A stretch of DNA of 64,000 nt, taken from contig NZ_FOLE01000001.1 of assembly GCF_900112255.1 (NCBI RefSeq), positions 1 through 64,000 on the forward strand. Reading direction: 5' to 3'. Every line of letters starts with the position of its first letter. The stretch's first letter is position 1. Below the pieces are notes generated by a model, which worked only from the letters and a program-made list of their open reading frames with translations, did no database searches and was not told where the DNA came from. Both the position numbers and the translations under genes were made by a program. Shown here piece by piece: positions 33,523 to 52,670 of this stretch. This DNA comes from Flexibacter flexilis DSM 6793 (GTDB lineage Bacteria; Bacteroidota; Bacteroidia; Cytophagales; Flexibacteraceae).

Positions 33523-34584
33523 TTAGGGTTGCGTATAACGTTTGTTTTTCACCAAATCCGAATCGTCAAGGGTTTTAAGAAATGCCGTAATCTTCGTTTT
33601 TTCGTCGTCGGTGAGCGGTATGCCCAGCACGCCTTTTTGTTGCAAAAGCGGGTCTAAAGTAGCGGATGCCAGCACACCAGCGGCGTAATGATCAAGCACT
33701 TCCGAAATTTTATTAAAACGCCCGTCGTGCATATACGGCTTAGTATAACTCAAATTGCGCAAGGACGGCACTCTGAATTTACCCAAATCATTGTTATCCA
33801 ACGAAATACGTTGGCGGCCAACATCCGTGAAAGTGGCATCTAATCCATTGTTACGATAGCTTTGATCGGTAAAAAGTTCTGTGTTATGGCAGCCGCCACA
33901 TTTGTTTTTTACCAAAGTTAAACCCGCCAATTCTGTATCGGTAAGTTGCTCACCTTCTTTGCGTACATATTTGTCGTAGCGCGAATTGCCCGACACGATC
34001 GCTCCCATAAATTGCGCGAAAGCGTACAAAATCTGCTGGCTGTCCACCGTGTCTTTTTTGAAAACAGCCTGAAATTTTGGTTTATAAAAACTACTTTGGT
34101 TCAAACGGCGCACCACTTCAGCCAACTGAATATCCATTTCTACGGGATTGGTCAGCGGCGCAACGGGCAAGGTTTCCAAATGAGCTACGCCACCATCCCA
34201 AAACAATGTTTTTTGCCAAATCGCATTAAAAATAGGCGGGGCATTACGTGTGCCCGACAAATGGTCTATGCCGTGCGCCACAGGGTGCGTAGGGTCAGTA
34301 AATGCCGCATAAGACTTATGACATGTGGCGCATGAAATGGTACTATCACGGGAAAGTATCGGTTCGTAAAAAAGCATTCGCCCCAACTGAAAACCTTCTT
34401 CCGAATACCGATTATTCGTAAAGCGATAAACGGGTTCTGGAAAGTTAGACGGCACTGCAAACGGCAGTGTATCAGGAACTACTACATCCGTTGAATTTGA
34501 GTTATCGTCTGGATTACAAGCCGAAATAACCAACGCCACCGCACTACAAAACAACAAAATTTGAGACCAATTCCTTTTTTTCAT
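33523..34584 (-). CDS. di-heme cytochrome c peroxidase, MauG/MbnH type
   Basis: A 353-residue lipoprotein-like di-heme protein. The lipobox is LVISAC (Cys23). Heme sites are CATCH (Cys85, Cys88, His89) and CGGCH (Cys229, Cys232, His233). The typical MauG/CcpA segments GTRNAPPIFNAIW, FWDGGVAHLE and PYMHDGRF are present. It lies 12 bases downstream of an MbnP-family gene. Known MbnH enzymes form a high-valent di-heme state and oxidise a Trp of MbnP to kynurenine, so this protein is best read as the MbnH partner rather than a simple peroxidase. Confidence 0.93.
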   Translation of the reverse strand: MKKRNWSQILLFCSAVALVISACNPDDNSNSTDVVVPDTLPFAVPSNFPEPVYRFTNNRYSEEGFQLGRMLFYEPILSRDSTISCATCHKSYAAFTDPTHPVAHGIDHLSGTRNAPPIFNAIWQKTLFWDGGVAHLETLPVAPLTNPVEMDIQLAEVVRRLNQSSFYKPKFQAVFKKDTVDSQQILYAFAQFMGAIVSGNSRYDKYVRKEGEQLTDTELAGLTLVKNKCGGCHNTELFTDQSYRNNGLDATFTDVGRQRISLDNNDLGKFRVPSLRNLSYTKPYMHDGRFNKISEVLDHYAAGVLASATLDPLLQQKGVLGIPLTDDEKTKITAFLKTLDDSDLVKNKRYTQP

Positions 34585-34596
34585 TCTCCAAAAAAA

Positions 34597-35367
34597 TTAT
34601 GGGTTTTTGACTGTTATGAGGCTAAACATCGTGGCGTAATTGTCTGCGCATTTCATGGCCACCGCACCAGGCATCATGCCAGGGTTTGCCCAAATAGAAA
34701 TTTGATGCGGACCGCCGTTGAGCACTTTTTGCACATTCGTACGAATATCAATTTCGGACACTGCACCATTTTTGATGGTGAGCGGCTGCGCCGAAAGGTC
34801 AAGATTTACGCGGCGAATCGTGTTGTATTGACCTCTAAAACCGCCTACGTGTAGCGTGTATCTGGCCGTTGTATCGGGTGTATTTCCTTCCAATTTGAAG
34901 AACACATAACCCGTATTCCAATCCCAAAACATTTCGTTCAGGGGGTCTAATGCACCTAATTGCGCACCCGAAACATTATAAACACTGTCCACGCCCACCA
35001 AAAAACTTAAATTCTTATACGTTCCGTCGGGCAGCCCTTGCACTGGCCAAGTCAGGGACGTTTGTTCCGAAGCATCTATCAGCGCATAACTTCCAGCAGC
35101 TTGTTTCCAAACCGTGCCGTCGGTGCGTGTAAATTGAGCCTCGCCCACATAATATTTGAGCGTGCTCACCGAAAAAGTTTCGCCCAATGTATCGTTATAA
35201 TTGGCAGTTTTGAGCGTAAGAGCTTGCGTGCCAACCGTATTACTAAAAACAATTTTTGCTTTTACGGTTGTCGCCTCGTTGCAATCGTCGCAAGAAGAGT
35301 CGTTGCAGGAAGCAATAAAAGTGCTCATTAGCAACAAAATAGCTACAGAAAGAAAGTTTTTTTTCAT
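34597..35367 (-). CDS. MbnP-family copper-binding lipoprotein
   Basis: A 256-residue lipoprotein (lipobox Cys21 after FIAS, then a Cys-rich DSSCDDCNE patch). The body matches MbnP: FSVSTLKYYVGEAQF, LTWPVQGLPDGTYKNLSFLV, and the signature MFWDWNTGYVFFKLEG with Trp148 and Trp150. Methanotroph MbnP binds copper after one Trp is converted to kynurenine by MbnH. The di-heme gene follows 12 bases later, so the pair is conserved here. ATG 35367 is preferred over a TTG two codons upstream. First gene of a three-gene operon that ends with an L,D-transpeptidase. Confidence 0.92.
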   Translation of the reverse strand: MKKNFLSVAILLLMSTFIASCNDSSCDDCNEATTVKAKIVFSNTVGTQALTLKTANYNDTLGETFSVSTLKYYVGEAQFTRTDGTVWKQAAGSYALIDASEQTSLTWPVQGLPDGTYKNLSFLVGVDSVYNVSGAQLGALDPLNEMFWDWNTGYVFFKLEGNTPDTTARYTLHVGGFRGQYNTIRRVNLDLSAQPLTIKNGAVSEIDIRTNVQKVLNGGPHQISIWANPGMMPGAVAMKCADNYATMFSLITVKNP

Positions 35368-35418
35368 GTTCAATTATCACATAAGTTAGGTAAGAAATCA
35401 AGGATTTGTATTATAACG

Positions 35419-40834: not shown

Positions 40835-41089
40835 TTAAGCTAATTTAGCCACGTATTTAGCCAACTTCGATTTGTGGTTAGCGGCTTTGTTTTTATGAAT
40901 TACATTCTTCTTAGCCAAACGATCTAGCATAGAAGAAACTTTTTTCAATAATTCTTGAGCCTCAGCTTTAGATTCGGCTGTACGAACTCTTTTCTCGAAT
41001 GTACGAGCTGTTTTTGCTTGGTATTTGTTGCGCAAACGTTTGGCGTTGTTCGCACGGATTCTTTTTAATGCGGATTTGTGATTTGCCAT
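40835..41089 (-). CDS. rpsT: 30S ribosomal protein S20
   Basis: An 84-residue basic, helical protein that binds 16S rRNA near the body of the small subunit. The family start MANHKSALKRIRANNAKRLR and the closing NKAANHKSKLAKYVAKL are clear, and the length is normal. It is monocistronic, with the best-formed promoter of its area upstream and a hairpin terminator downstream. Confidence 0.98.
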   Translation of the reverse strand: MANHKSALKRIRANNAKRLRNKYQAKTARTFEKRVRTAESKAEAQELLKKVSSMLDRLAKKNVIHKNKAANHKSKLAKYVAKLA

Positions 41090-41226: not shown

Positions 41227-43116
41227 TTAATCTAACAAGTGCTTTATTTCTTCGTAACTCCCTTGTGCTGTGATAGTTCCATTCTTAAAAAAGACTACTT
41301 TATCTGCCGAAGCCAACCAAAGCGGATTGTCCGTTACGACGATAAGCGTCCAGCCATTATACGGCTCTTGCAGGCGCGACAGAATACGAATGCGCTCTTC
41401 TTTGGCTATCAAATGTACAAAATCTTCCATTAGAAGCAACTGAGGTTTAGAGGCAATACAACGTGCTAACAAGATTTTGTGCAAAACACTACCCGAAATG
41501 CGACGACCTTCGGCCATGAGTTGTGTGTTTAGGCCGTCGGGCAAATTATTTATCGTATCAGAAAGGCCAACCATTTCAATGGTTTCCATTACGTCGGGCA
41601 AAGAAATATCCAAACGCCCCATCGTAATATTATCCAAAATAGTTCCGTCAAAAATCTCATCTCTGGACACGTGTTTGGCTACATAATGGCGCAACGACGG
41701 CAATTTAATATCCCGAACCGAAAGGCCATTGACCGTTACAACCCCTTCAAAATCGCTCAACGTACCCGAAAGTACCTGCAACATGGAGTTTTTGCCCGAA
41801 CCGTTTTCGCCAACCAAACACACCGTTTGGCCCGCCTCTACTTTCAAATTAATATCATGCAGGGCGTATTTTTTGGCATCAGGATATTTGTAACTCATGG
41901 TTTTTACTTCCACGCTTGCACCTTTCGGGCTTACTTTCATGAATTTAAGACCGTTTTCGCGCTCCAACGGCAAATCCGTTACCTGTCCAATTTTCTCCAC
42001 TGCCGTCAGCACATCGTACACCGTTTCCATACTGGCAATGATTTTTTCTACGGCATTGACAATGGTAATAATCACGATTTCGGAAGCCACGAACTGACCC
42101 AACGTAATTTGGCGGTCAATCACTAACAACGCGCCCATCACCAACAAGCCGCCAGTTATAATCGTCTTAAAACCAATGATATAACCAAACTGCGAGGCCA
42201 ACACATTAAAGTGGCTTTTGCGATAATACAAATAATTGCTCACGTATTCGTCCGTGCGCTGCATGGGCATATTGGTATGTCCTGCCATTTTGAACGACGA
42301 AATAGTACGCGCCATTTCCTCCAACCAATGCACCGTTTTGTATTTGTATTTGGATTCTAACAAACTTGTTTCCAAGCCTTTAGAGCTTGTGAAACGAAAC
42401 ATAAAATACATCAGAAACAGCAACGTAATGCCAAAAAACACGAAAAACGGGTGATAAAACGACAATAGCAAAATACCAAAAATGATTTGCAGAGCTGCCG
42501 CCGTCATGTCTATGAGCATTTTGGGCAAACCTTTTTGTACGGTCAGAATATCAAAAAAGCGATTGATAAGCTCTGGCGGATAATATTTGGAGATAACCTC
42601 CGACTTGAGTCGCGGAATCCTGTAGGCAAATTCAAACGCGGCTTTGGCAAACACGCGCTGTTGCAGCACTTCCACCAACGTAATTTGCATGATTTGCAGC
42701 GCACCGCTAATAAGAATCCCCAGCACCACCATACAAATCAACAAAATTACGGCATTGAACATCAGGCCGCCCGAAATACGGCTAATAATCGCCTGAATAC
42801 CCAAGGGCAAAGACAAGTTAATCAGGCCAATAATAATGGCATACACATAGATATAGCCAATGTCCTGTTTTTCGTTTCTCAACAACCTAAAAAGCCGCTG
42901 CATAGGCGAAAGCGTTTCCGCCTTGCCGTCGGCACGCCCCAAGGTGCTAAACAGCGACTCAGACGGAAAAGCCGTCATCACGAGCATTTTGTCGCGCTTT
43001 TTGGGGTCGGGCGAATCGTGATGCGAATAAATATTATCAAAATTGTTGGCCGACCAAGCCGCGTGCACCAATCCTTTATCAGTGATGCGTATAGGCCTCA
43101 AAACCACGTTCGCCAA
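41227..43116 (-). CDS. ABC exporter-like protein with degenerate ATPase domain
   Basis: A 629-residue type I exporter half: about 90 N-terminal residues, six membrane helices (from YIYVYAIIIGLINLSLPLGI), and a nucleotide-binding domain from about residue 385. The fold is kept (A-loop Tyr in SYKYPDAKKYALHDINLKVE), but most ATPase motifs are altered. Walker A reads GENGSGKN, with Asn for Ser/Thr. The signature reads ISGSV for LSGGQ. Walker B ends LLLMED, with no canonical Asp-Glu pair. The switch His is Asp (VVTDNP), and the Q-loop Gln is missing. It overlaps the upstream small frame by 38 bases. It is probably a pseudo-ATPase that needs a partner, or a non-transporting protein. Confidence 0.88.
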   Translation of the reverse strand: MANVVLRPIRITDKGLVHAAWSANNFDNIYSHHDSPDPKKRDKMLVMTAFPSESLFSTLGRADGKAETLSPMQRLFRLLRNEKQDIGYIYVYAIIIGLINLSLPLGIQAIISRISGGLMFNAVILLICMVVLGILISGALQIMQITLVEVLQQRVFAKAAFEFAYRIPRLKSEVISKYYPPELINRFFDILTVQKGLPKMLIDMTAAALQIIFGILLLSFYHPFFVFFGITLLFLMYFMFRFTSSKGLETSLLESKYKYKTVHWLEEMARTISSFKMAGHTNMPMQRTDEYVSNYLYYRKSHFNVLASQFGYIIGFKTIITGGLLVMGALLVIDRQITLGQFVASEIVIITIVNAVEKIIASMETVYDVLTAVEKIGQVTDLPLERENGLKFMKVSPKGASVEVKTMSYKYPDAKKYALHDINLKVEAGQTVCLVGENGSGKNSMLQVLSGTLSDFEGVVTVNGLSVRDIKLPSLRHYVAKHVSRDEIFDGTILDNITMGRLDISLPDVMETIEMVGLSDTINNLPDGLNTQLMAEGRRISGSVLHKILLARCIASKPQLLLMEDFVHLIAKEERIRILSRLQEPYNGWTLIVVTDNPLWLASADKVVFFKNGTITAQGSYEEIKHLLD

Positions 43117-43402
43117 ATGGCTGAATCAGAAGCGGATAATACTCATATTCGGAATGATACTCAAATATCATGAGCGGATACTCCAATTTTTTGAGCATAT
43201 CCTGAAACGTTTCCTTGTCGATGGCGTTAGAAATAAGCACCATTTTGTTGTGATGACTTTGCTCAATGAATGTGTCCACGAAATCGAGAAAACTCAAGTT
43301 GGCGGGCGGAATCGTAAAATAGGTCTGAATCTTCTCGGCCTGAATCGGGTAGCTGGCTTTGGCTATCTGCGTCAGGGCGTTTTCGACTAATTGATAAGTC
43401 AT
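43079..43402 (-). CDS. small protein coupled to ABC exporter; possible split N-terminal domain
   Basis: A 107-residue protein without a signal peptide (MTYQLVENALTQIAKASYPI, then a hydrophobic strand NKMVLISNAI and PLMIFEYHSEYEYYPLLIQP). Its last 38 bases overlap the ABC gene in another frame. The end of this frame and the beginning of the next read equally naturally, and together they would span about 725 residues, close to the length of exporters with an N-terminal peptidase-like domain. So it is either a translationally coupled partner or the first part of one frameshifted gene. I do not recognise the family on its own; no catalytic Cys-His of a C39 peptidase is evident. Confidence 0.65.
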   Translation of the reverse strand: MTYQLVENALTQIAKASYPIQAEKIQTYFTIPPANLSFLDFVDTFIEQSHHNKMVLISNAIDKETFQDMLKKLEYPLMIFEYHSEYEYYPLLIQPFGERGFEAYTHH

Positions 43403-43530
43403 AAATTGTAGGTATGAAAGTAAGTTTGTATATAGCTGGAATTAAAATCCTTTTACGAATAACGCAAAAAATCCGTTTCTGTTTCGTTTTTTGCTATAAA
43501 AAACCTTACGCAAGGCACCATTTTCACAAA

Positions 43531-43568: not shown

Positions 43569-44135
43569 TTATTTGGTATTAAACTGATTCATGGTTCTTT
43601 CGATGCCTGCCATGCAAAACGAAACAATCGCTTCGGAGCAGCGGTCGAGATGTATCGGAAGCTCAGCCATTTCGTTTTGGTCAAAGTTACTGAGCACATA
43701 ATCCACTTGTTTTCCTTTGGAAAAATTGCTGCCCACGCCAAAGCGCAAACGCGGATAATCTTGCGAACCAAGCACTTCTTGTATGTTGCCCAGTCCGTTG
43801 TGGCCGCCATTCGAGCCTTTGGATTTGATGCGCAATTTGCCGTAAGGCAAGGCCAAATCGTCGGTAATGACCATCATGTTTTCTTTCGGAATTTTCAGCG
43901 TGTTGAGCCAATGACTTACCGCCTTACCGCTCAGGTTCATAAACGTAGTGGGTTTTATCAAATGCAAAACAGCATTTTTATAGCGAAATTCGGTCGTAAA
44001 GGCCAAACGGTCGGAGCTAAATGCGGGTGCTTTGTGCAACTCGGCCAAACGGTCAAGCACCAAAAAGCCAATGTTATGGCGTGTGAGTTCGTATTGAGGC
44101 CCAATGTTGCCAAGCCCCACAATCAAATATTTCAC
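43569..44135 (-). CDS. pth: peptidyl-tRNA hydrolase
   Basis: A 188-residue enzyme that frees tRNA from stalled peptidyl-tRNA. Conserved parts are MKYLIVGLGNIGPQYELTRHNIGF (with the catalytic His20 and Asn10), PTTFMNLSGKAV, MVITDDLALPYGK with the catalytic Asp, and GSNGGHNGLGNI. Normal length, cytoplasmic, monocistronic. Confidence 0.98.
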   Translation of the reverse strand: MKYLIVGLGNIGPQYELTRHNIGFLVLDRLAELHKAPAFSSDRLAFTTEFRYKNAVLHLIKPTTFMNLSGKAVSHWLNTLKIPKENMMVITDDLALPYGKLRIKSKGSNGGHNGLGNIQEVLGSQDYPRLRFGVGSNFSKGKQVDYVLSNFDQNEMAELPIHLDRCSEAIVSFCMAGIERTMNQFNTK

Positions 44136-44248: not shown

Positions 44249-45628
44249 TTAATTTTTCTTTACCAAAGTGTATTCGATTACAGGTTTGCCACGTTCGCCG
44301 CCATCGCTGGCCAAGCCCATGCTTACAAATTTTAGTTTATAAACATTGCCCGCAGGGTCTTTTACCACATAAAAACGGTCGTGTTTAATACCTGTCGTTG
44401 CGCCGCTTGTCGCACGCCATTTGCTACCGATAGCATCTCTTGCACCAGAGAAAGTAGTAGTAGCAATGTTAGATTCTGTGTAATTCGCATACGTTACGGT
44501 GCTTTCTAACACTTCGGCTGCTTGTGCGCCTGCCGCATAATTCAACAAAATAAAATCTTGGAACCAGTAAGGCGTTGGCGGCGTAGTACCTGCGTTAGAA
44601 GTGCTATACGACCACTGAATATCCCAACTCGCTTTGCGTGGCTCGGCACTCACTACCGCCGCCGTTTCCAACGATGCAAACGTGAAGTTATAGTCTGATT
44701 GGCTTGGAATCTCTAACGTTTGGATAGTAGTCGAGCCAATACGCGCAAATTGCACTTTGTAGCCTGCACCACTGCGCGAAACTTTTACTTTAAACCATTG
44801 ATCTTTGTTTTTGCTACCTTCAAAAGCAACCAAATATACTTTGTTTTCTGCATCGTTAGCCGAAACTTCCGCGAAAGCAGTTTTGGTCAAATCGCCATCC
44901 CAATAATCCACCAAAGCCAATGAACCTTCTGCACCTGGTGAGAAATTAAGATTAGCAACAGCACTTGTGTCAGCCAACGTAACCGCCGAAATGTCGGTTT
45001 TGCTAGTAGCCGCCGCTGTAGATTGGTAAGCTGGGTTCAAAATTACGCGATACTGGCCGCCGTTGTAAAAACCTAAGTTCCATGACTTACGCGCTACGGC
45101 TGTGGATTGATTCGCACTCAAATCCACGTACACGCCGTTGGTATAGTTCGACTCTGCCGTTTTGCCTTGCAACGTTTGGGTGCTGCCTGTCGAAGTAATC
45201 GCGGCAAAGCTCAATTTTAATTGATTGTCAGTTCCCACCAACACAGGCGAAGTAGCCGACTTAATTTTGAAAGTAACATACTCGTCGCCATTCAAAAACA
45301 AGCCATCTTTTTTCTTTACTTTGAACGAAGCCGTACTTTGTCCAGCGGCCACACTTACCGCCAAAACGCCATTTGCAGCGGCGGGATCGGTGGTGTATTC
45401 GTTTCCGTAAGTAAGTACATTTGAGTTAAGTTCGATGTTTAGCGTAGTGGCTGCGTCTGCGGCACGCGACAAAGTGAGTTGAACGGTCGCTTCATTACTC
45501 TCAATGCCTTGTGTGGTGGTGGTAAAACTGGCCAAATTGTCTGGCAATTCAGTATCATCATCTTTACAAGCAGCCACCGAAACGGCCAAAGCACATACAA
45601 TAAACAGTCGGTTAAAGAATTTTTTCAT
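44249..45628 (-). CDS. hmuY: HmuY-family heme-binding lipoprotein with Calx-beta-like domain
   Basis: A 459-residue surface lipoprotein (lipobox SVAAC, Cys21). Residues about 30-145 look like a Calx-beta module (ATVQLTLSRAADAATTLNIE, then LFLNGDEYVTFKIKSA). Residues about 155-459 match HmuY (SWNLGFYNGGQYRVILNPAY, ASWDIQWSYSTSN, DRFYVVKDPAGNVYKLKFVS, GERGKPVIEYTLV). HmuY of Porphyromonas takes heme from host hemoproteins and passes it to the TonB receptor HmuR. Here the receptor gene lies 42 bases upstream. The classic HmuY heme-ligand residues are not verified, and the extra Calx-beta module makes the protein about twice normal length. Confidence 0.9.
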   Translation of the reverse strand: MKKFFNRLFIVCALAVSVAACKDDDTELPDNLASFTTTTQGIESNEATVQLTLSRAADAATTLNIELNSNVLTYGNEYTTDPAAANGVLAVSVAAGQSTASFKVKKKDGLFLNGDEYVTFKIKSATSPVLVGTDNQLKLSFAAITSTGSTQTLQGKTAESNYTNGVYVDLSANQSTAVARKSWNLGFYNGGQYRVILNPAYQSTAAATSKTDISAVTLADTSAVANLNFSPGAEGSLALVDYWDGDLTKTAFAEVSANDAENKVYLVAFEGSKNKDQWFKVKVSRSGAGYKVQFARIGSTTIQTLEIPSQSDYNFTFASLETAAVVSAEPRKASWDIQWSYSTSNAGTTPPTPYWFQDFILLNYAAGAQAAEVLESTVTYANYTESNIATTTFSGARDAIGSKWRATSGATTGIKHDRFYVVKDPAGNVYKLKFVSMGLASDGGERGKPVIEYTLVKKN

Positions 45629-45670
45629 GAGATTTTTAATATTAATTTAGAATAAGTAGAATTGATTTTT

Positions 45671-47947
45671 CTAATGAATCTGGAACAAAATGCCCAGTGT
45701 GTACGACCTGCCATAAGCCACAGGTACAGCCCCGGCCGAGCTATGCGCCGCCCCCGTGTCGGTGGTCGTGTTATTGATGCTCGTTACATCAAAGATGTTT
45801 TTTACCCCAGCCGTAAGCGTATAATATTTATAAAATAACTTATTGACAGTCAGGTCTGCGGTATGAAAATCCAGCGTTTTGGTAAGATGTACCGCCTCGC
45901 CGCCGTTGCTGTCCGTACCCAACTGATAGCGCGGCAATTGCCCCGTATATTTGTAATAAAAACTAATGCTGGCATTGGCTTTGGGGAAGTTGTAATGAAG
46001 CGTTGCGTTTAGCTCATCTGCCCACACAAATTCGGGCAAATCTTCGCTACTGGCCAGCTGATTGTACCGACCGATACGCGAGTAGCCCACTTCGGCCTGA
46101 AGGTTTTGCCACTGAAGCGTATTGTTCCACACCAAACCCAACGTTTTGTTTTTATCAACATTTAAGTACGTGTAAATCTGTGCGTTGGTGGGGTCTGAGC
46201 CAATCGAAATCAAGTTTTTGAAAGTATTGTAAAACCCTCCTACCGACACGTTCAGGCTCAAACGCGATTTAGAAACCGCCTGCCAAGCAAAGTACGTATT
46301 GAAGCTATTGGAATATTCGGCCTTCAGATTCGTGTTGCCTTTGATGGAATGGTTGCTATCAAAAAAAGTAAAGTAAAGTTCGCTCAGCGAAGGTGAACGA
46401 AAACCACGTGCATACGCCATGCGCAAATCCAGCGTTGGCCAAAGTTTGAACTTGGTGTTTAGCGACGGAATAGCAGGCGGCGCATCGTACACCGAGTTTT
46501 TAACAAAACGCAAACCTGGTCGCAAATTCATCCAATCCGTTGGTTTTAGCTCTGCCGAAATGAAATAAGCCAAATCCGTAATTTTGGGCGTTCCTGCGAT
46601 GCGTTGGCCTGTGGCTGCGTTGTGGTTAAGTTCCAAGCCATGCTGCACCGAAAACAACTCAGAACAAGCATGTTGCGCCGTTACGCGCCCAAACACCGTC
46701 TGAAAAGTGGCTTTGTCTTGTGCGCCTTGCTCCAAAGAAAGCGTGCGTTTGTTGGTTTGTAAATCTATGTCGGTAGTCTGCGTTTCGCGCGAATAATCCG
46801 TGTAAGCCAAAGCCGCCGTAAGGCTGTGTTTTTCGTTCCAAGTATAATCGCCTTGTGCCTGATGAAACCAACGATTTGTTACATAGTGCTTGTCTGTGGC
46901 GGCCAAATGTTTGGTGGCCGTATTGATATAAGTATTTCCCAAACTTTTCAGGGTTTCGTTGGTTTGATTCAGCCTGTACCACACGTTCCAGCGGCTTTTG
47001 CCATAGCCCAACATGGCCGTAGTCAAATACTGTTCTTTGGGCATCCATTCTTTGGCTCTGCCCGTATAAGAGCCTTGCCAACCGCCAAAAGTATTGCGCG
47101 TCAAATTGCCCGAAACCTGCAAGCCTTTGTGTTGCCAACCCAATCCAATCATTTGGTTATGAGCACCTTCACCATCAAGAGGTTCATATTCTTTGCTGGC
47201 AGTTTCTTCTTGTAGGCGGGCGGAAACCGTCCAAGCCGAAGGTGTATTTTTTTTCTTGGTAATAATATTGATTACTCCTGCCAGCGCGTCTGTTCCGTAG
47301 CTCACCGACATGGGGCCTTCTACGATTTCAATTCTTTCGATGGTGTTAATATCAATTTGTCCCAAACTCTCGCGGGTTGTACCTCTGTCCACGAGTGGCA
47401 CGCCGTCCAAAAGCACTTTTACGTTTTGCCCCGACATTCCCATGAGTTGCACGTCGGTTGTGCCCAGCGTGAGGTCATTGGAAAAACGCATTCCAAGTTC
47501 CGTACTCAACACCGCCGTTACCGATGTGGCCGCACGTCTTTTTATTTGTTCTTGGGAAATAGTACGAACTTTATAGACCGAATTTTTGACCGACTGCGGC
47601 GTAAACTGCCCCGTTACGACTACATCATTGAGTAAACTTTGCTTTTCGGACAAAATTACCGCGCCCAAATCTTGCGCTGCGGCGGCTTCTATTTCTTTTT
47701 CAAAAACCTCATAACCAACGCATTGAACCGTAATCGTATGTTTCCCCGCAGGCAATTGAAGCAAAAATGTACCGTCTGGCTCTGTGCTTTGCCCGATGCG
47801 CAGATTTTTGACCCACACGGAAGCAAGCACGATTTCACCCTTATGGTTTTGTACCTTTCCCCGAATGCTTACTTGTTGGGCGTTTTGCGCCACTGCATTG
47901 AGCCAAGCAAACAATCCCAAAAAGAAACAGATAGATTTTGTCTTCAT
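45671..47947 (-). CDS. TonB-dependent heme receptor (HmuR-like)
   Basis: A 758-residue outer-membrane receptor. After the signal peptide a CarboxypepD_reg-like domain covers about residues 25-110 (QQVSIRGKVQNHKGEIVLAS). The plug (ISQEQIKRRAATSVTAVLST, EIVEGPMSVSYGTDALAGVI) and barrel follow. A heme-receptor-like box reads FRSPSLSELYFTFFDSN with NTNLKAEYS after it, close to the FRAP and NPNL motifs of hemin/hemoglobin receptors, but with Ser for Ala. It is followed by the HmuY gene, which supports heme uptake. A good promoter and palindromic operator sit upstream. Confidence 0.93.
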   Translation of the reverse strand: MKTKSICFFLGLFAWLNAVAQNAQQVSIRGKVQNHKGEIVLASVWVKNLRIGQSTEPDGTFLLQLPAGKHTITVQCVGYEVFEKEIEAAAAQDLGAVILSEKQSLLNDVVVTGQFTPQSVKNSVYKVRTISQEQIKRRAATSVTAVLSTELGMRFSNDLTLGTTDVQLMGMSGQNVKVLLDGVPLVDRGTTRESLGQIDINTIERIEIVEGPMSVSYGTDALAGVINIITKKKNTPSAWTVSARLQEETASKEYEPLDGEGAHNQMIGLGWQHKGLQVSGNLTRNTFGGWQGSYTGRAKEWMPKEQYLTTAMLGYGKSRWNVWYRLNQTNETLKSLGNTYINTATKHLAATDKHYVTNRWFHQAQGDYTWNEKHSLTAALAYTDYSRETQTTDIDLQTNKRTLSLEQGAQDKATFQTVFGRVTAQHACSELFSVQHGLELNHNAATGQRIAGTPKITDLAYFISAELKPTDWMNLRPGLRFVKNSVYDAPPAIPSLNTKFKLWPTLDLRMAYARGFRSPSLSELYFTFFDSNHSIKGNTNLKAEYSNSFNTYFAWQAVSKSRLSLNVSVGGFYNTFKNLISIGSDPTNAQIYTYLNVDKNKTLGLVWNNTLQWQNLQAEVGYSRIGRYNQLASSEDLPEFVWADELNATLHYNFPKANASISFYYKYTGQLPRYQLGTDSNGGEAVHLTKTLDFHTADLTVNKLFYKYYTLTAGVKNIFDVTSINNTTTDTGAAHSSAGAVPVAYGRSYTLGILFQIH

Positions 47948-48281: not shown

Positions 48282-51200
48282 TTATTTAACGATTATCAAT
48301 TTAGTAGTCTCGTATATGTTATCGCCCAACAGTGTTACGTGATATGTGCCCGTTTTCAAGTGTTTTGTTGGCAATTCTAAGATATGGAAACCTCCCGCCA
48401 ACTCATATCCATGGCGATAAATTGGGCGACCCAAAACATCCGTAACAGTTACTTCTACTTTATCAGATTGTGGCAATAACAACTCTAACTTACAGTTTTG
48501 AGCAGAAGACATTGGATTCGGATACAATGTCAATCCTCCTTCTTCCAACATACCCAACGACGCATGAACTTTATGACTTAGACTAAAACCGCCGTCTCTG
48601 TCCACCTGACGCAACGAGTAGTAATAAACAACCCCAGATTCTACGTTCTTGTCTTCATAATAATAGTTGTGAACTTCGCGACTATCTCCAAAGCTCGACA
48701 CTTTGCTTATTACAACAGTCTCTCCTGAGTTGCTTGTGCTACGCAATACCTCAAAGTATGCATTGTTTTGTTCTTGCGCTGTTGCCCAATAAACGCCGAT
48801 GCTATGCCCTTTGCTCGATGCTCGCAAAGACAACAAGGTTACAGGCAAGGTTCCATCCGCTGCTTGCACTATATCAAATTCAGAGAAACCACTCAAGCCA
48901 CTGCGAGACACCGTTACACTACCCGAACTTGGATCTGAACAGCCTACGCGAGTACCAGACAAGGCTCCATTCTTGGCTATCGTCGCATATTTGCCGCCAT
49001 TTGTAAACCCATTGGCAGTAATACTAATCGTATAAGTACCGTCGCCAGTAATTTGGGTCAATGCCGAGTTGAAAGCACTTACCTCCCATGTGCCCGTATT
49101 GATGCGACCGCCATCTTGGTTATAAGTTGGCTGATTACAACCCGCAACGGTACTTGCTTCCGCAATTACTGCTGCAAATGGAACGGTATAGCTTGGTGTT
49201 ATACCAAAACGACCACGCAAATTATCGATCGTTGTCGATCCTGTGAAATTTACTGTTACAGGGTTTGCTTGCGCTACACCCAACGGAAACGTATAACTTC
49301 CTGTACTATTCACAAAACGGCGCAAATAGCCCCACACATAACTACCTGCAGCACTACTTACTGCACCTACTGCTCTATTTTTCACGCGCACCTCATAACT
49401 AGTGGTCGTCTTAATACTGCCCAATGTAAACATAAGTGTTGCTGTGTTAGAAAGTATCATATTACTTCCAAGATTCACATAAACCCCTACGCCGCCGCCA
49501 TTATTGATAACTACATTCTCCAAATCGATTATTCCAGCATTCGTATAAGTCTGATCAGCAGTACCATCAAACTCTAATATACCTCCAGTGCCAGGGCTAA
49601 ATGTAGCATTATTAGTAAAGTTACCCCCGACGGTCAAACGTTTACTATTAGCATTATAAACACCATTGGCAATAGTAAAAGTACTATTCAACTCCATATC
49701 TTGTTGTTGCGTTACGCTACCTGCTGTTTTATTGATGGTTACATTTGGCAAGGCACTTTCATTGATTAGATTACCTATCAAAGTTTGAGCGGCAGTACCC
49801 AAAAATCGCATTGTAGTCGTAGGCAATGCCGTCAGAATACCTGCATTATTATAATCACCATAAATATCTACACGTCCACCTAAGCCTATTGTTACTTTAG
49901 CGTCTAGATTGATTATCAAACTTTTACACGTAGCATTACCCGTTATAATGGGCTGATTGGCGGCGGAGGGCGAAATCTGTGCATCTATATTCGCGTTTGG
50001 TATTTCGCAACCACCCCAGTTCTCCTTCTTAAACCAATCTGTATCAATAGAACCAGTCCAAGTAACAGACGACACGGACGCTGCCGTTGGATAGGCAACT
50101 GGAGATACATCGTCAAACGTAATCGTAAAACCAGAGGTACTGTTCGTATAATTACTGATAACCAACAAGTACTCTTCTCCTGACACTACATTAATCGGCA
50201 GCTCATAAGCAGCGTCATAGCCTGGATATGCACTTGGTGCATTACCCGACACATCAACCCCTGTTACACCCAAATAACTATAATTACAACGCAAGGGTGT
50301 TGGAGGATCTAAGGGATCAGAAATAGACGAACACGCCACAGCTGTATCATTATTCAGCGGACTAAGCACCGAACTTTTCACTTTCCATATGGCAAAGTCA
50401 TAATCCGTTTCATCTCCTACCACCCCATCATAATCATTCGGAATGATGCTAAATATCAATTGACCTGCTGCATTCACAGGGATTTTGTACCAAACAGAAC
50501 CACGTTCGCCAGAAGACAAACAGCCAGCCGAAGCAAAATCACATTCGTAACCAATCCCCTGATAACCAGGATTGCCAATCGTCATACTGGAGTTACAAAC
50601 AGGCACACTGGCCGAACAAGCCTGCCCCGCTGAAGTAGGAAAGCTGCCGCTACCATCCACGGCCATTATATTAAACGTACCAACCTGATTGCTATAACCG
50701 TCCACACGGATATAATACGTCGCGCCAGCGGTAAGGCCTGTAGCTGTGATTTCAGAATTGGTATAAGAAGAAGAACCACACGTTGGCGCATCATCATTAG
50801 CCGCAATAGAAGTAAACGTCCCACTACAACTTGTAGCAGAAAACAATTGAATTTGTGTATTAGCCAATGTACCTAATGTTGTACGAATTTTCAAACGGCC
50901 TGAGGCTGGGGCTGTAACCTTGTACCATACCGTATTCAAATTGCCTGCCGTCCAAGCACCTGGAGCAGCAGGCTCACCAGTGCCATTGGCGCAACTATTA
51001 TCGCCTCCCAAATTCACACCCAATGGCAGATTAATAGCCGTACAAGCCACATCATTATCAGCAGTACCCGCGCCTACACTAAACGACCAAACAGGGCAAG
51101 AAGCAATGGGATACGCTCCTGCGCTGTTGCGTGGTACTATTTTCCAGTAATAAGTGCCTATCGGTAATGCTGAAGCTGAAATATAATTAGTGGCAGTTTG

Positions 51201-52670
51201 ATTCGTTGATACAGGTGTCGTAAATGTAGTGCTGTTCGTTTGCAAATAAACATCATAGCCAGTAGTTGCATTACAACCCGTGTTAGACGGAGCCGTCCAA
51301 GCAAGCGTTGGCACACTACAAAGATTGGCCGCACCATTGGCAGGGGAAGAAATAGTCGCCGCCGCCACTGGTACAGACGGCAAAGATGCCGTAATAGCAA
51401 TGTCGTCTATCGAAATAGGGGGCTGCGTTCCTAATGATGCATCATTCCTCCAACTAAATACCAATCGTTGGGTAGTTCCAGCTATAGCCGCATTATCCAA
51501 ATTCAAAGACACTTGAGAATAAGCATCTTGCACATTATAGGTTGTACCAATTTGACCCGAAGCCAATTGCGTTCCCGCCGTAATAGTAGTCGTTACAGGC
51601 ACTAAATAAACTCTTAAATAGTCATAAGAACCTTCACCCTGCCCTTTGTAATAAAAGCTCAAATTATAACATTGATTAACAGGAAAAGTTATATCTCTAT
51701 AAAAATGTACTACTGAAGTTGCATTTACATCATAAGCATTAGAACTTCCGTCATTAGAAATATAAATAGATTTTGCTCCTGCATTTTTTGTGGCCGTACC
51801 CACCACCCATTTATTAGTCTGCGAGCCGTTTACAATCGTCCAAGGAAAGCAAGTGCTTTCAAAATTTTCTGTAATATTAGGAGTATTCGATACTACTGTA
51901 GCACTTGTCGTAAAACTCCATACGGGGCAAGAGGCTTTGGCATACGCACCATAAGAGTTACGAGGCACTATTTGCCAATAATAAGTAGTGCTGGAGCTCA
52001 AGCCAGAAGGTGAATAACTCGTTAGACCTTGATTAGAAGAAACTAATGTAGTGGGCGTAGCTGCCGTACCAAAGTACACATCATAACCCGTAGCAGCCTT
52101 ACATCCTGTAAGTGCTGGAGCCGTCCAAGAAAGTGTTGGTGCAGCACATCCCGTCAGGGTAGAGCCTGATGCTGGCGACGGAGCAGATGCCGATGCAGTC
52201 GGAGCTGTACAAGCCGATGCCACAACCGTCAAAGAACTTACACTCATATTATTATCTTTGCCCACATTAACAACCCGCACATGATAAGTTCCTGCTGCTA
52301 ATGATAGCGTAAGCGTTTCTGTTACACCAGACCCTCCATTGTTAGCGCAAGACACTTCTGTAAGGCTAGCACAAGTACCACTCAGCAACTGAATGGCTGG
52401 ATTACGATTGGCAGCTAATGTTATAGTTACGTCAGAAAACGAGGCAAGGGTAAAAGAATACCAGCCTTCCCTCGTTACGGTTCTTCCACACACTGTTGCA
52501 GTTCCATTAATTGTTGCGTCATTTATCGTGGCCGTTACACCAGCTCCATTTACCGTCAGAGACGTGGATCCTCCGCAAGTAGTTCCTTGCCCAAAACTCA
52601 CTAGTGGAGCCAGCAGAAGAAGTATTAATAACCAATAATTTTTGTTCTTGTAAGCGTTTCTCATAAGCAT
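48282..52670 (-). CDS. giant T9SS-exported surface protein 1
   Basis: A 1462-residue secreted protein. After the signal peptide come a pre-peptidase-like beta domain (GREGWY-type EGWYSFTLASFSDVTITLAA), Fn3-like domains (APTLSWTAPALTGCKAATGY), a jelly-roll-like domain (ENFESTCFPWTIVNGSQ), another Fn3 and a second pre-peptidase-like domain (NTVWYKVTAPASGRLKIRTT). A large region with KSLIINLDAKVTIGLGGRVD follows. The end is a T9SS sorting domain (LTLYPNPMSSAQNCKLEL, closing ETTKLIIVK). Many Cys pairs suggest disulfides. No enzymatic motif is visible; an adhesin or surface-layer role is likely. It is a tandem paralogue of the next gene. Confidence 0.93.
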   Translation of the reverse strand: MLMRNAYKNKNYWLLILLLLAPLVSFGQGTTCGGSTSLTVNGAGVTATINDATINGTATVCGRTVTREGWYSFTLASFSDVTITLAANRNPAIQLLSGTCASLTEVSCANNGGSGVTETLTLSLAAGTYHVRVVNVGKDNNMSVSSLTVVASACTAPTASASAPSPASGSTLTGCAAPTLSWTAPALTGCKAATGYDVYFGTAATPTTLVSSNQGLTSYSPSGLSSSTTYYWQIVPRNSYGAYAKASCPVWSFTTSATVVSNTPNITENFESTCFPWTIVNGSQTNKWVVGTATKNAGAKSIYISNDGSSNAYDVNATSVVHFYRDITFPVNQCYNLSFYYKGQGEGSYDYLRVYLVPVTTTITAGTQLASGQIGTTYNVQDAYSQVSLNLDNAAIAGTTQRLVFSWRNDASLGTQPPISIDDIAITASLPSVPVAAATISSPANGAANLCSVPTLAWTAPSNTGCNATTGYDVYLQTNSTTFTTPVSTNQTATNYISASALPIGTYYWKIVPRNSAGAYPIASCPVWSFSVGAGTADNDVACTAINLPLGVNLGGDNSCANGTGEPAAPGAWTAGNLNTVWYKVTAPASGRLKIRTTLGTLANTQIQLFSATSCSGTFTSIAANDDAPTCGSSSYTNSEITATGLTAGATYYIRVDGYSNQVGTFNIMAVDGSGSFPTSAGQACSASVPVCNSSMTIGNPGYQGIGYECDFASAGCLSSGERGSVWYKIPVNAAGQLIFSIIPNDYDGVVGDETDYDFAIWKVKSSVLSPLNNDTAVACSSISDPLDPPTPLRCNYSYLGVTGVDVSGNAPSAYPGYDAAYELPINVVSGEEYLLVISNYTNSTSGFTITFDDVSPVAYPTAASVSSVTWTGSIDTDWFKKENWGGCEIPNANIDAQISPSAANQPIITGNATCKSLIINLDAKVTIGLGGRVDIYGDYNNAGILTALPTTTMRFLGTAAQTLIGNLINESALPNVTINKTAGSVTQQQDMELNSTFTIANGVYNANSKRLTVGGNFTNNATFSPGTGGILEFDGTADQTYTNAGIIDLENVVINNGGGVGVYVNLGSNMILSNTATLMFTLGSIKTTTSYEVRVKNRAVGAVSSAAGSYVWGYLRRFVNSTGSYTFPLGVAQANPVTVNFTGSTTIDNLRGRFGITPSYTVPFAAVIAEASTVAGCNQPTYNQDGGRINTGTWEVSAFNSALTQITGDGTYTISITANGFTNGGKYATIAKNGALSGTRVGCSDPSSGSVTVSRSGLSGFSEFDIVQAADGTLPVTLLSLRASSKGHSIGVYWATAQEQNNAYFEVLRSTSNSGETVVISKVSSFGDSREVHNYYYEDKNVESGVVYYYSLRQVDRDGGFSLSHKVHASLGMLEEGGLTLYPNPMSSAQNCKLELLLPQSDKVEVTVTDVLGRPIYRHGYELAGGFHILELPTKHLKTGTYHVTLLGDNIYETTKLIIVK

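Follow-up and report, generated by a model that had tools for sequence, protein, structure and literature searches.

A family of ABC-exporter-like proteins with altered or missing ATPase domains, kept with HlyD- and TolC-like partners: candidate ATP-independent exporters

Introduction

Why should a protein with the fold of an ATP-binding cassette (ABC) exporter be retained when the residues that serve ATP hydrolysis have been replaced? The question is raised by P0001, an open frame of 629 residues (41227–43116, minus strand) in the first 64 000 nucleotides of contig NZ_FOLE01000001.1 of Flexibacter flexilis DSM 6793 (assembly GCF_900112255.1); this whole stretch of DNA is referred to below as the window. 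The initial annotation, made from the letters of the window, described an ABC exporter with most motifs of its nucleotide-binding domain (NBD) altered, and offered two explanations, a pseudo-ATPase half of a heterodimer and a receptor-like protein. Comparison with relatives makes it fairly likely that P0001 belongs to a tripartite envelope exporter whose inner-membrane part has become independent of ATP and is perhaps driven by ions. Residue numbers throughout follow P0001.

Catalytic motifs of P0001 and its relatives

The fold of P0001 is evidently kept, since it matches two Pfam families, ABC_membrane (29.2 bits, cut-off 28) and ABC_tran (58.6 bits, cut-off 25). The initial annotation had called the rest of the domain and six membrane helices well kept, and this stood for the fold; a hydropathy scan gave five clear membrane segments, and the figure of six is deduced from the ABC_membrane match. 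The changes that had been described (GKN, ISGSV, LLLMED, the missing Gln and His replaced by Asp) were all present in the sequence. All five scored motifs, namely the S/T after the Walker A Lys, the Q-loop Gln, SGGQ, Asp-Glu and the switch His, are altered in P0001, and K442 and the glycines of Walker A are retained. P0001 thus has the membrane domain of a type IV ABC exporter but not the set of motifs expected of a working NBD.

Of 59 genomes sampled from the family and the order, that of F. flexilis included, 47 had an exporter match (E ≤ 1e-60). The first alignment comprised 48 rows with the window, of which four consisted of the membrane domain only and one was truncated where its contig ends. 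With an NBD-less protein as query, a search across the phylum (395 genomes) gave matches in 97 at E ≤ 1e-25, and the loci of 40 of these 97 genomes were read. L065, which runs into a contig end, and L177, whose frame is split, were dropped before motif scoring.

Motif states were read by alignment column, and may err where the alignment errs; on this basis, 60 rows were degenerate, including the window and three odd far rows (L142, L143 and L153). The Walker A Lys was present in 58 of them and the following S/T in 40, whereas Asp-Glu was found in five, the Q-loop Gln and the switch His in one each, and SGGQ in none. Three of the five motifs were altered in seven rows, four in 33 and all five in 20, the window among the last. 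The two rows without the Walker A Lys were L054 and L160.

Thirteen rows from farther families keep the Walker A Lys, the S/T, Asp-Glu and the switch His together, which is the definition of the group termed ATP-competent here. None of the 13 has the Q-loop Gln or SGGQ, and all 13 have the Gly at the fourth position of the signature. An ATPase was probably ancestral, given that Walker A, Asp-Glu and His are intact in these more distant proteins. Near relatives of P0001 did not have canonical motifs, the substitutions being fixed across orthologues, and the motif states of the orthologues support the proposal of a pseudo-ATPase. Judged from the aligned residues, catalytic-residue loss is fixed over many families, and the altered NBDs very probably no longer hydrolyse ATP.

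The NBDs of L054 (genome G001) and L160 (G103), on separate branches, have also lost the Walker A motif and are possible next stages towards NBD loss.

Association with HlyD- and TolC-like genes

Genes for HlyD-like and TolC-like proteins, identified by Pfam, adjoin the exporter gene in 28 of 36 loci. Of the remaining eight loci, two run into contig ends, and in the other six, the window among them, the genes are unlinked; in all six of these genomes both partners are present elsewhere. The partners in the F. flexilis genome are on contig C9, unlinked to P0001, and are 61 and 47 % identical to the HlyD and TolC, respectively, of genome G013. In the phylum-wide set both partners were within five frames of the exporter in 35 of the 40 loci.

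The association also holds between genomes. Of the 47 genomes that have the exporter, 46 also have HlyD (E ≤ 1e-40), compared with none of the 12 that lack it (Fisher p 1.2e-11, kinship not corrected for), and the same counts were obtained for TolC; the exceptions were G004 and G058, where the genes are at contig ends. A receptor-like protein is not supported, since almost all genomes with the gene also encode the HlyD adaptor and the TolC channel. TetR-type genes were nearby in 14 of the 36 loci, and after HlyD, TolC and TetR the next most shared neighbour cluster was present in four.

The four HlyD-like adaptors that were compared (e.g. L039:5558–6919 and L057:7831–9186) share a conserved C-terminal stretch resembling (V/I)WYE(I/L)WRQLNGFPP.

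Loss of the NBD in one nested clade

Some relatives consist of the membrane domain without any NBD. In a tree of 83 membrane-domain rows, from which six near-duplicates had been removed, the seven NBD-less rows formed one clade among rows with a dead NBD, with a support of 100 in the Shimodaira–Hasegawa-like approximate likelihood ratio test (SH-aLRT), and the ATP-competent rows fell outside the main group; the rooting of this tree is rough, the outgroup being three C39 exporters on very long branches. A larger tree (98 rows) again grouped the NBD-less proteins, now 28, in one clade (SH-aLRT 100) inside a clade of 34 rows (SH-aLRT 100), the other six of which possess an NBD with at least four of the five motifs altered. 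Both trees are of a quick kind, with SH-aLRT as their only support. Neighbours of this kind include L200 (732 aa, with an N-terminal domain and an altered NBD) and L202 (581 aa, with an altered NBD only).

An order-wide search matched 245 of 390 genomes at E ≤ 1e-90. Among the matches listed, at least 65 genomes of the order had a matching frame of only 334–409 aa, a length that alone is no proof of NBD loss; the column comparisons below are based on 33 NBD-less sequences that were read. A relocated dead NBD was looked for in 12 NBD-less genomes and none was found among the matches listed, the hits being at most 30 % identical and mostly full-length exporters, with the exception of short hits of 46–70 % identity to the membrane-domain tails of the family itself, which the query covered. 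Two genomes that served as positive controls in this search gave identities of 49 and 58 %. One nested clade has lost the NBD, and has kept the membrane domain and both partners.

Two independent NBD losses were considered in view of NBD-less copies in family f23, outside the order, and were rejected, the f23 copies being nested inside the one clade. These copies (L161, L162 and L163) lie within the clade of families f10 and f12, and horizontal transfer of the operon is therefore likely. Two NBD-less copies per genome, by frame length, were observed in G519 (L217 and L218, both read) and in G693 (L188 and a second place).

Selection on the two domains and relaxation of the docking loop

Among 28 NBD-bearing relatives, 34 columns were invariant in the membrane domain compared with three in the NBD. 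The NBD was more alike than the membrane domain in none of 1770 pairs with dead NBDs, compared with 31 of 78 ATP-competent pairs (the pairs are not independent). The ratio of non-synonymous to synonymous substitution rates (dN/dS) of the membrane domain was 0.004–0.096 in seven of eight NBD-less pairs, dS being >2 in four of the seven, and the eighth pair was saturated; the membrane domain thus remains under purifying selection after NBD loss. For the altered NBD it was 0.027–0.106 in seven of 14 pairs (dS >2 in two of the seven), the other seven being saturated. The role retained by the altered NBD is probably structural.

For the counts of loop and acidic residues a dead group of 59 rows was used, from which L142, L143 and L153 were left out and to which L200 and L202 were added. 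Twenty-three membrane-domain columns were conserved (≥60 %) in these 59 rows and kept by ≤25 % of the 33 NBD-less rows; eight of the 23 fall at residues 267–287, the tip of intracellular loop 2. In pairs whose membrane domains are otherwise 55–65 % identical, the identity of this tip was 25 % between NBD-less proteins (158 pairs), compared with 52 % in the dead group (388 pairs) and 54 % in the ATP-competent group (seven pairs). The corresponding values for the loop-1 stretch 176–196 were 72, 66 and 76 %. A stretch near residues 239–246 was also looser in the NBD-less rows. Of the four canonical exporters of the F. flexilis genome, three have their loop-2 motif Lys in the column of K276 and the fourth has Gln there.

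In the Sav1866 structure, coupling helix 2 contacts the NBD of the opposite subunit. The relaxed loop-2 tip of proteins that have lost the NBD suggests that these dock neither an NBD of their own nor that of an active partner, given that coupling helices engage NBDs across the dimer in the exporter fold (PMC8277102).

Possible mechanism and energy source

In the proposed system, a protein of the P0001 type would be the inner-membrane component, acting with an HlyD-like periplasmic adaptor and a TolC-like outer-membrane channel. The ATPase domain would have stopped hydrolysing ATP, with the membrane domain and both partners kept. A homodimer of membrane domains would switch between inward and outward states (alternating access) without ATP and would pass the substrate into the HlyD–TolC duct, and the dead NBD, where retained, may serve as a clamp on the cytoplasmic side that docks on the tip of loop 2. 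A proton or other ion gradient would most likely be the driving force, for which the conserved acidic residues E149 and E346, in or near the membrane, are candidate coupling sites. The TetR-type regulators beside many copies hint that the substrates may be small molecules.

Position 149 was Glu in all 92 dead and NBD-less rows and Asp or Glu in all 13 ATP-competent rows. E346, in transmembrane helix 6 (TM6), was conserved as Glu in all 33 NBD-less rows, and with a single exception each in the dead group (58 of 59) and the ATP-competent group (12 of 13); an essential Glu of LmrA is also in TM6 (PMC6155054), the correspondence to E346 being by helix only. Intact MsbA draws on ATP as well as on the pH gradient, and MsbA without its NBD still exports ethidium by means of the pH gradient (PMC4979069).

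Several observations weigh against this proposal. A proton site gained at the death of the ATPase was looked for and not found, positions 149 and 346 being acidic already in nearly all ATP-competent relatives, so that proton coupling, if real, predates the loss of the ATPase. The Walker A Lys in 58 of the 60 degenerate rows means that nucleotide could still be bound, and the altered NBD is under purifying selection and must therefore still do something. MsbA from which the Walker A Lys was deleted did not export ethidium, unlike MsbA without the NBD (PMC4979069), and a retained dead NBD might thus be expected to hinder transport; NBD-less MsbA failed to replace intact MsbA in a lipid-transport strain (PMC8660845). 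Loop 1 is still conserved in the NBD-less proteins, unlike in SbmA, so that some cytoplasmic contact may remain, and the replacement of K276 by Arg in 30 of 33 NBD-less rows is a mild change. The copy in the window has a split N-terminal domain and unlinked partners. Finally, single-sequence structure models of two window proteins had predicted local distance difference test (pLDDT) values of 38.5 and 47.9 and were unusable.

A broader proposal is put forward more tentatively, as a possibility that we hold somewhat less likely than its opposite: a stepwise conversion, in nature, from an ATP-driven to an ion-driven tripartite exporter, in which the ATP-competent, dead-NBD and NBD-deleted stages (the last with a relaxed docking loop) are all alive with the same HlyD–TolC pair. 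Secondary transporters would then have arisen from ABC exporters a second time, independently of SbmA/BacA.

Alternative explanations

The best placed of the alternatives, although unlikely, is that an unusual NBD still binds ATP and perhaps slowly hydrolyses it, the nucleotide gating the exporter. The widespread Walker A Lys and the purifying selection on the NBD noted above would both be expected of such a domain, and the ATP-competent relatives, which also lack the Q-loop Gln and SGGQ, indicate that the family tolerates odd motifs. Nevertheless, at least three of the five motifs are altered in all 60 rows and four or five in 53, the Walker A Lys itself is missing from L054 and L160, and the export system persists in the clade that has no NBD to bind nucleotide.

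The heterodimer suggested in the initial annotation, in which P0001 would be the pseudo-ATPase half and a canonical ABC exporter encoded elsewhere the active one, is improbable. Degenerate sites are common in non-homodimeric exporters (PMC7756269), and the genome of F. flexilis contains four other matches that span both domains, located on other contigs and 19–25 % identical to P0001, three with LSGGQ and one with LSVGQ. However, no other ABC-like frame was found near the exporter in 75 of 76 loci, in a near-gene search beyond whose reach a dispersed MsbA-like partner would lie. The sole exception is at the locus of the NBD-less exporter L057, where an ABC-like frame of 286 aa (L057:12007–12864) lies about 4 kb downstream; it is common to no other locus. 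C39-type proteins were found in 19 of the 59 genomes and were absent from 40, including that of the window, and therefore cannot be an obligate partner. A whole clade, moreover, is without the NBD and has a relaxed loop-2 tip, the part that meets the NBD of the other subunit in this fold.

Equally improbable is a membrane domain that transports nothing and serves as an assembly platform, anchoring or gating an HlyD–TolC duct that receives its substrates from the periplasm or from another pump. The near-strict co-occurrence with HlyD and TolC and the lack of a gained ion-coupling site would suit such a platform, but conserved columns occur throughout the membrane domain, in loops and helices alike (as read from the alignment, with no mapping onto a structure), and no neighbour gene is shared in the 36 loci as widely as HlyD, TolC and TetR.

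Local decay, a pseudogene or a sequencing error, as the splitting of the window N-terminal domain between two frames might suggest, is scarcely credible, and is refuted for the family, as orthologues in several families carry the same kind of changes, 629 codons are open and the partners are kept in the genome, in line with the initial view that this is not a decayed pseudogene.

Comparison with known systems

For an ATP-independent exporter of this kind, SbmA/BacA offers the closest working mode (PMC13316013, PMC12003926). These peptide transporters (SLiPT) are proposed to have originated from full ABC transporters by NBD loss, are energised by the proton gradient and have lost the coupling helices (PMC13316013); the NBD-less clade described here likewise has an ABC-exporter-type membrane domain without an NBD. 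SbmA/BacA is an importer with an extra TM0 (PMC13316013), whereas the present family has HlyD and TolC partners and presumably exports. It also differs in having intermediates with altered NBDs and in that the loop-2 tip is relaxed and loop 1 is not. By sequence, the present proteins do not belong to SbmA/BacA. The NBD-less protein L057 matched only ABC_membrane (PF00664) in Pfam at E ≤ 0.5. PF00664 was matched by all 31 alignment members at E ≤ 0.1, and the SbmA/BacA family was not among the matches listed for these 31 members, which were the best 25 of 29 families.

The gene order exporter–HlyD–TolC and the types of partner are those of type I secretion (HlyB/LssB), and the best NCBIfam match of P0001 was TIGR03375, at 184.4 bits well below the cut-off of 693.1. 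In contrast to HlyB/LssB, the present family is without the catalytic motifs; for its N-terminal domain no C39 match was obtained in the comparisons described below, which used a poor template. The membrane domains of LmrA and MsbA (LmrA-MD and MsbA-MD) move ethidium alone, with ions or protons (PMC6155054, PMC4979069), MsbA-MD less efficiently than intact MsbA (PMC4979069); these are artificial truncations, whereas the NBD loss in the present family is natural and has been retained. Degenerate catalytic residues in the NBD of an exporter are also known from TM287/288, TmrAB and BmrCD (PMC7756269, PMC8277102), but these keep one consensus site by means of the partner subunit, and no such partner was found near the gene here. 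A search of full-text literature, mostly open access with few preprints, gave no HlyD/TolC-linked exporter family with a dead ATPase or without an NBD among the matches listed, although such a family may have been described in other wording.

The split N-terminal domain and features of the locus

At 32 of 48 places with exporter matches the frame is 723–779 aa long and includes an extra N-terminal domain, which was seen in the loci that were read. In the window this domain (43070–43441, minus strand) is split by a frame change, which may be a mutation, a sequencing error or a sign of two polypeptides. A profile of the N-terminal domain built from 33 relatives matched the window at 43441–43082, minus strand (profile positions 2–111, E 2.3e-11), and again in the adjoining frame 43125–41230, minus strand (profile positions 124–159, E 2.7e-5). 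The TTG start of the P0001 frame is probably not the true gene start. The domain is missing in other lineages, e.g. L047, L051 and L063, and is therefore dispensable. No convincing family match to it was found in Pfam or the PDB, and its hhalign comparison with C39 gave a probability of 0.6 %, against a poor template made from the C39 domains of only seven exporters. The coordinates of P0001 and its parts are collected in Table 1.

Table 1. Features of the P0001 locus in the window
Feature	Coordinates	Strand	Residues	Remarks
107-aa open frame	43082..43402	-		Initial portion of the N-terminal domain, which most orthologues in the order carry fused to the exporter; in another frame than P0001
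ABC-exporter-like protein P0001	41227..43116	-		NBD catalytically altered; residues 1 to ~60 represent the C-terminal part of the split N-terminal domain
Membrane domain	41962..42906	-	71-385	
Intracellular loop 1 motif	42550..42579	-		PPELINRFFD; retained in ATP-competent, dead and NBD-less relatives
Intracellular loop 2 tip	42256..42303	-		Coupling helix 2, by alignment with the canonical exporters of the same genome
TM6 start	42079..42102	-		LGQFVASE; contains E346
Catalytically altered NBD	41239..41919	-	about 400-626	
Walker A	41788..41811	-	436-443	GENGSGKN; S/T replaced by N443
Q-loop region	41650..41673	-	482-489	HVSRDEIF; Gln replaced by Ser
Signature	41485..41502	-	539-544	RISGSV, replaces LSGGQ
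Walker B end	41422..41439	-	560-565	LLLMED; Asp-Glu replaced by Glu-Asp
Switch region	41329..41340	-		VVTD; His replaced by D596

The neighbours of P0001 encode peptidyl-tRNA hydrolase (43569–44135) and ribosomal protein S20 (40835–41089), neither of which is a transport gene. Elsewhere in the window a di-haem cytochrome c peroxidase (CCP_MauG) adjoins an MbnP protein (33523–35373, minus strand), a type of pair associated with metal handling. An HmuY-like protein lies beside a TonB-dependent receptor (44249–47947, minus strand), likely a haem or metallophore uptake pair, and a protein of 1462 aa encoded at 48282–52670, minus strand, carries a type IX secretion sorting tail.

Implications

Pumping without the ATPase by the membrane half of an ABC exporter has so far been debated on LmrA and MsbA proteins truncated in the laboratory, whereas here a whole family appears to have taken this step in nature with its adaptor and channel kept. 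Annotation profiles would name its members ABC transporter ATP-binding proteins, although they probably do not hydrolyse ATP. The series of working, dead and absent NBDs within one family is ready material for testing what the ATPase contributes to export. If the stepwise conversion proposed above is true, this would be, as far as the literature found shows, the first ABC-derived secondary transporter that exports across two membranes.

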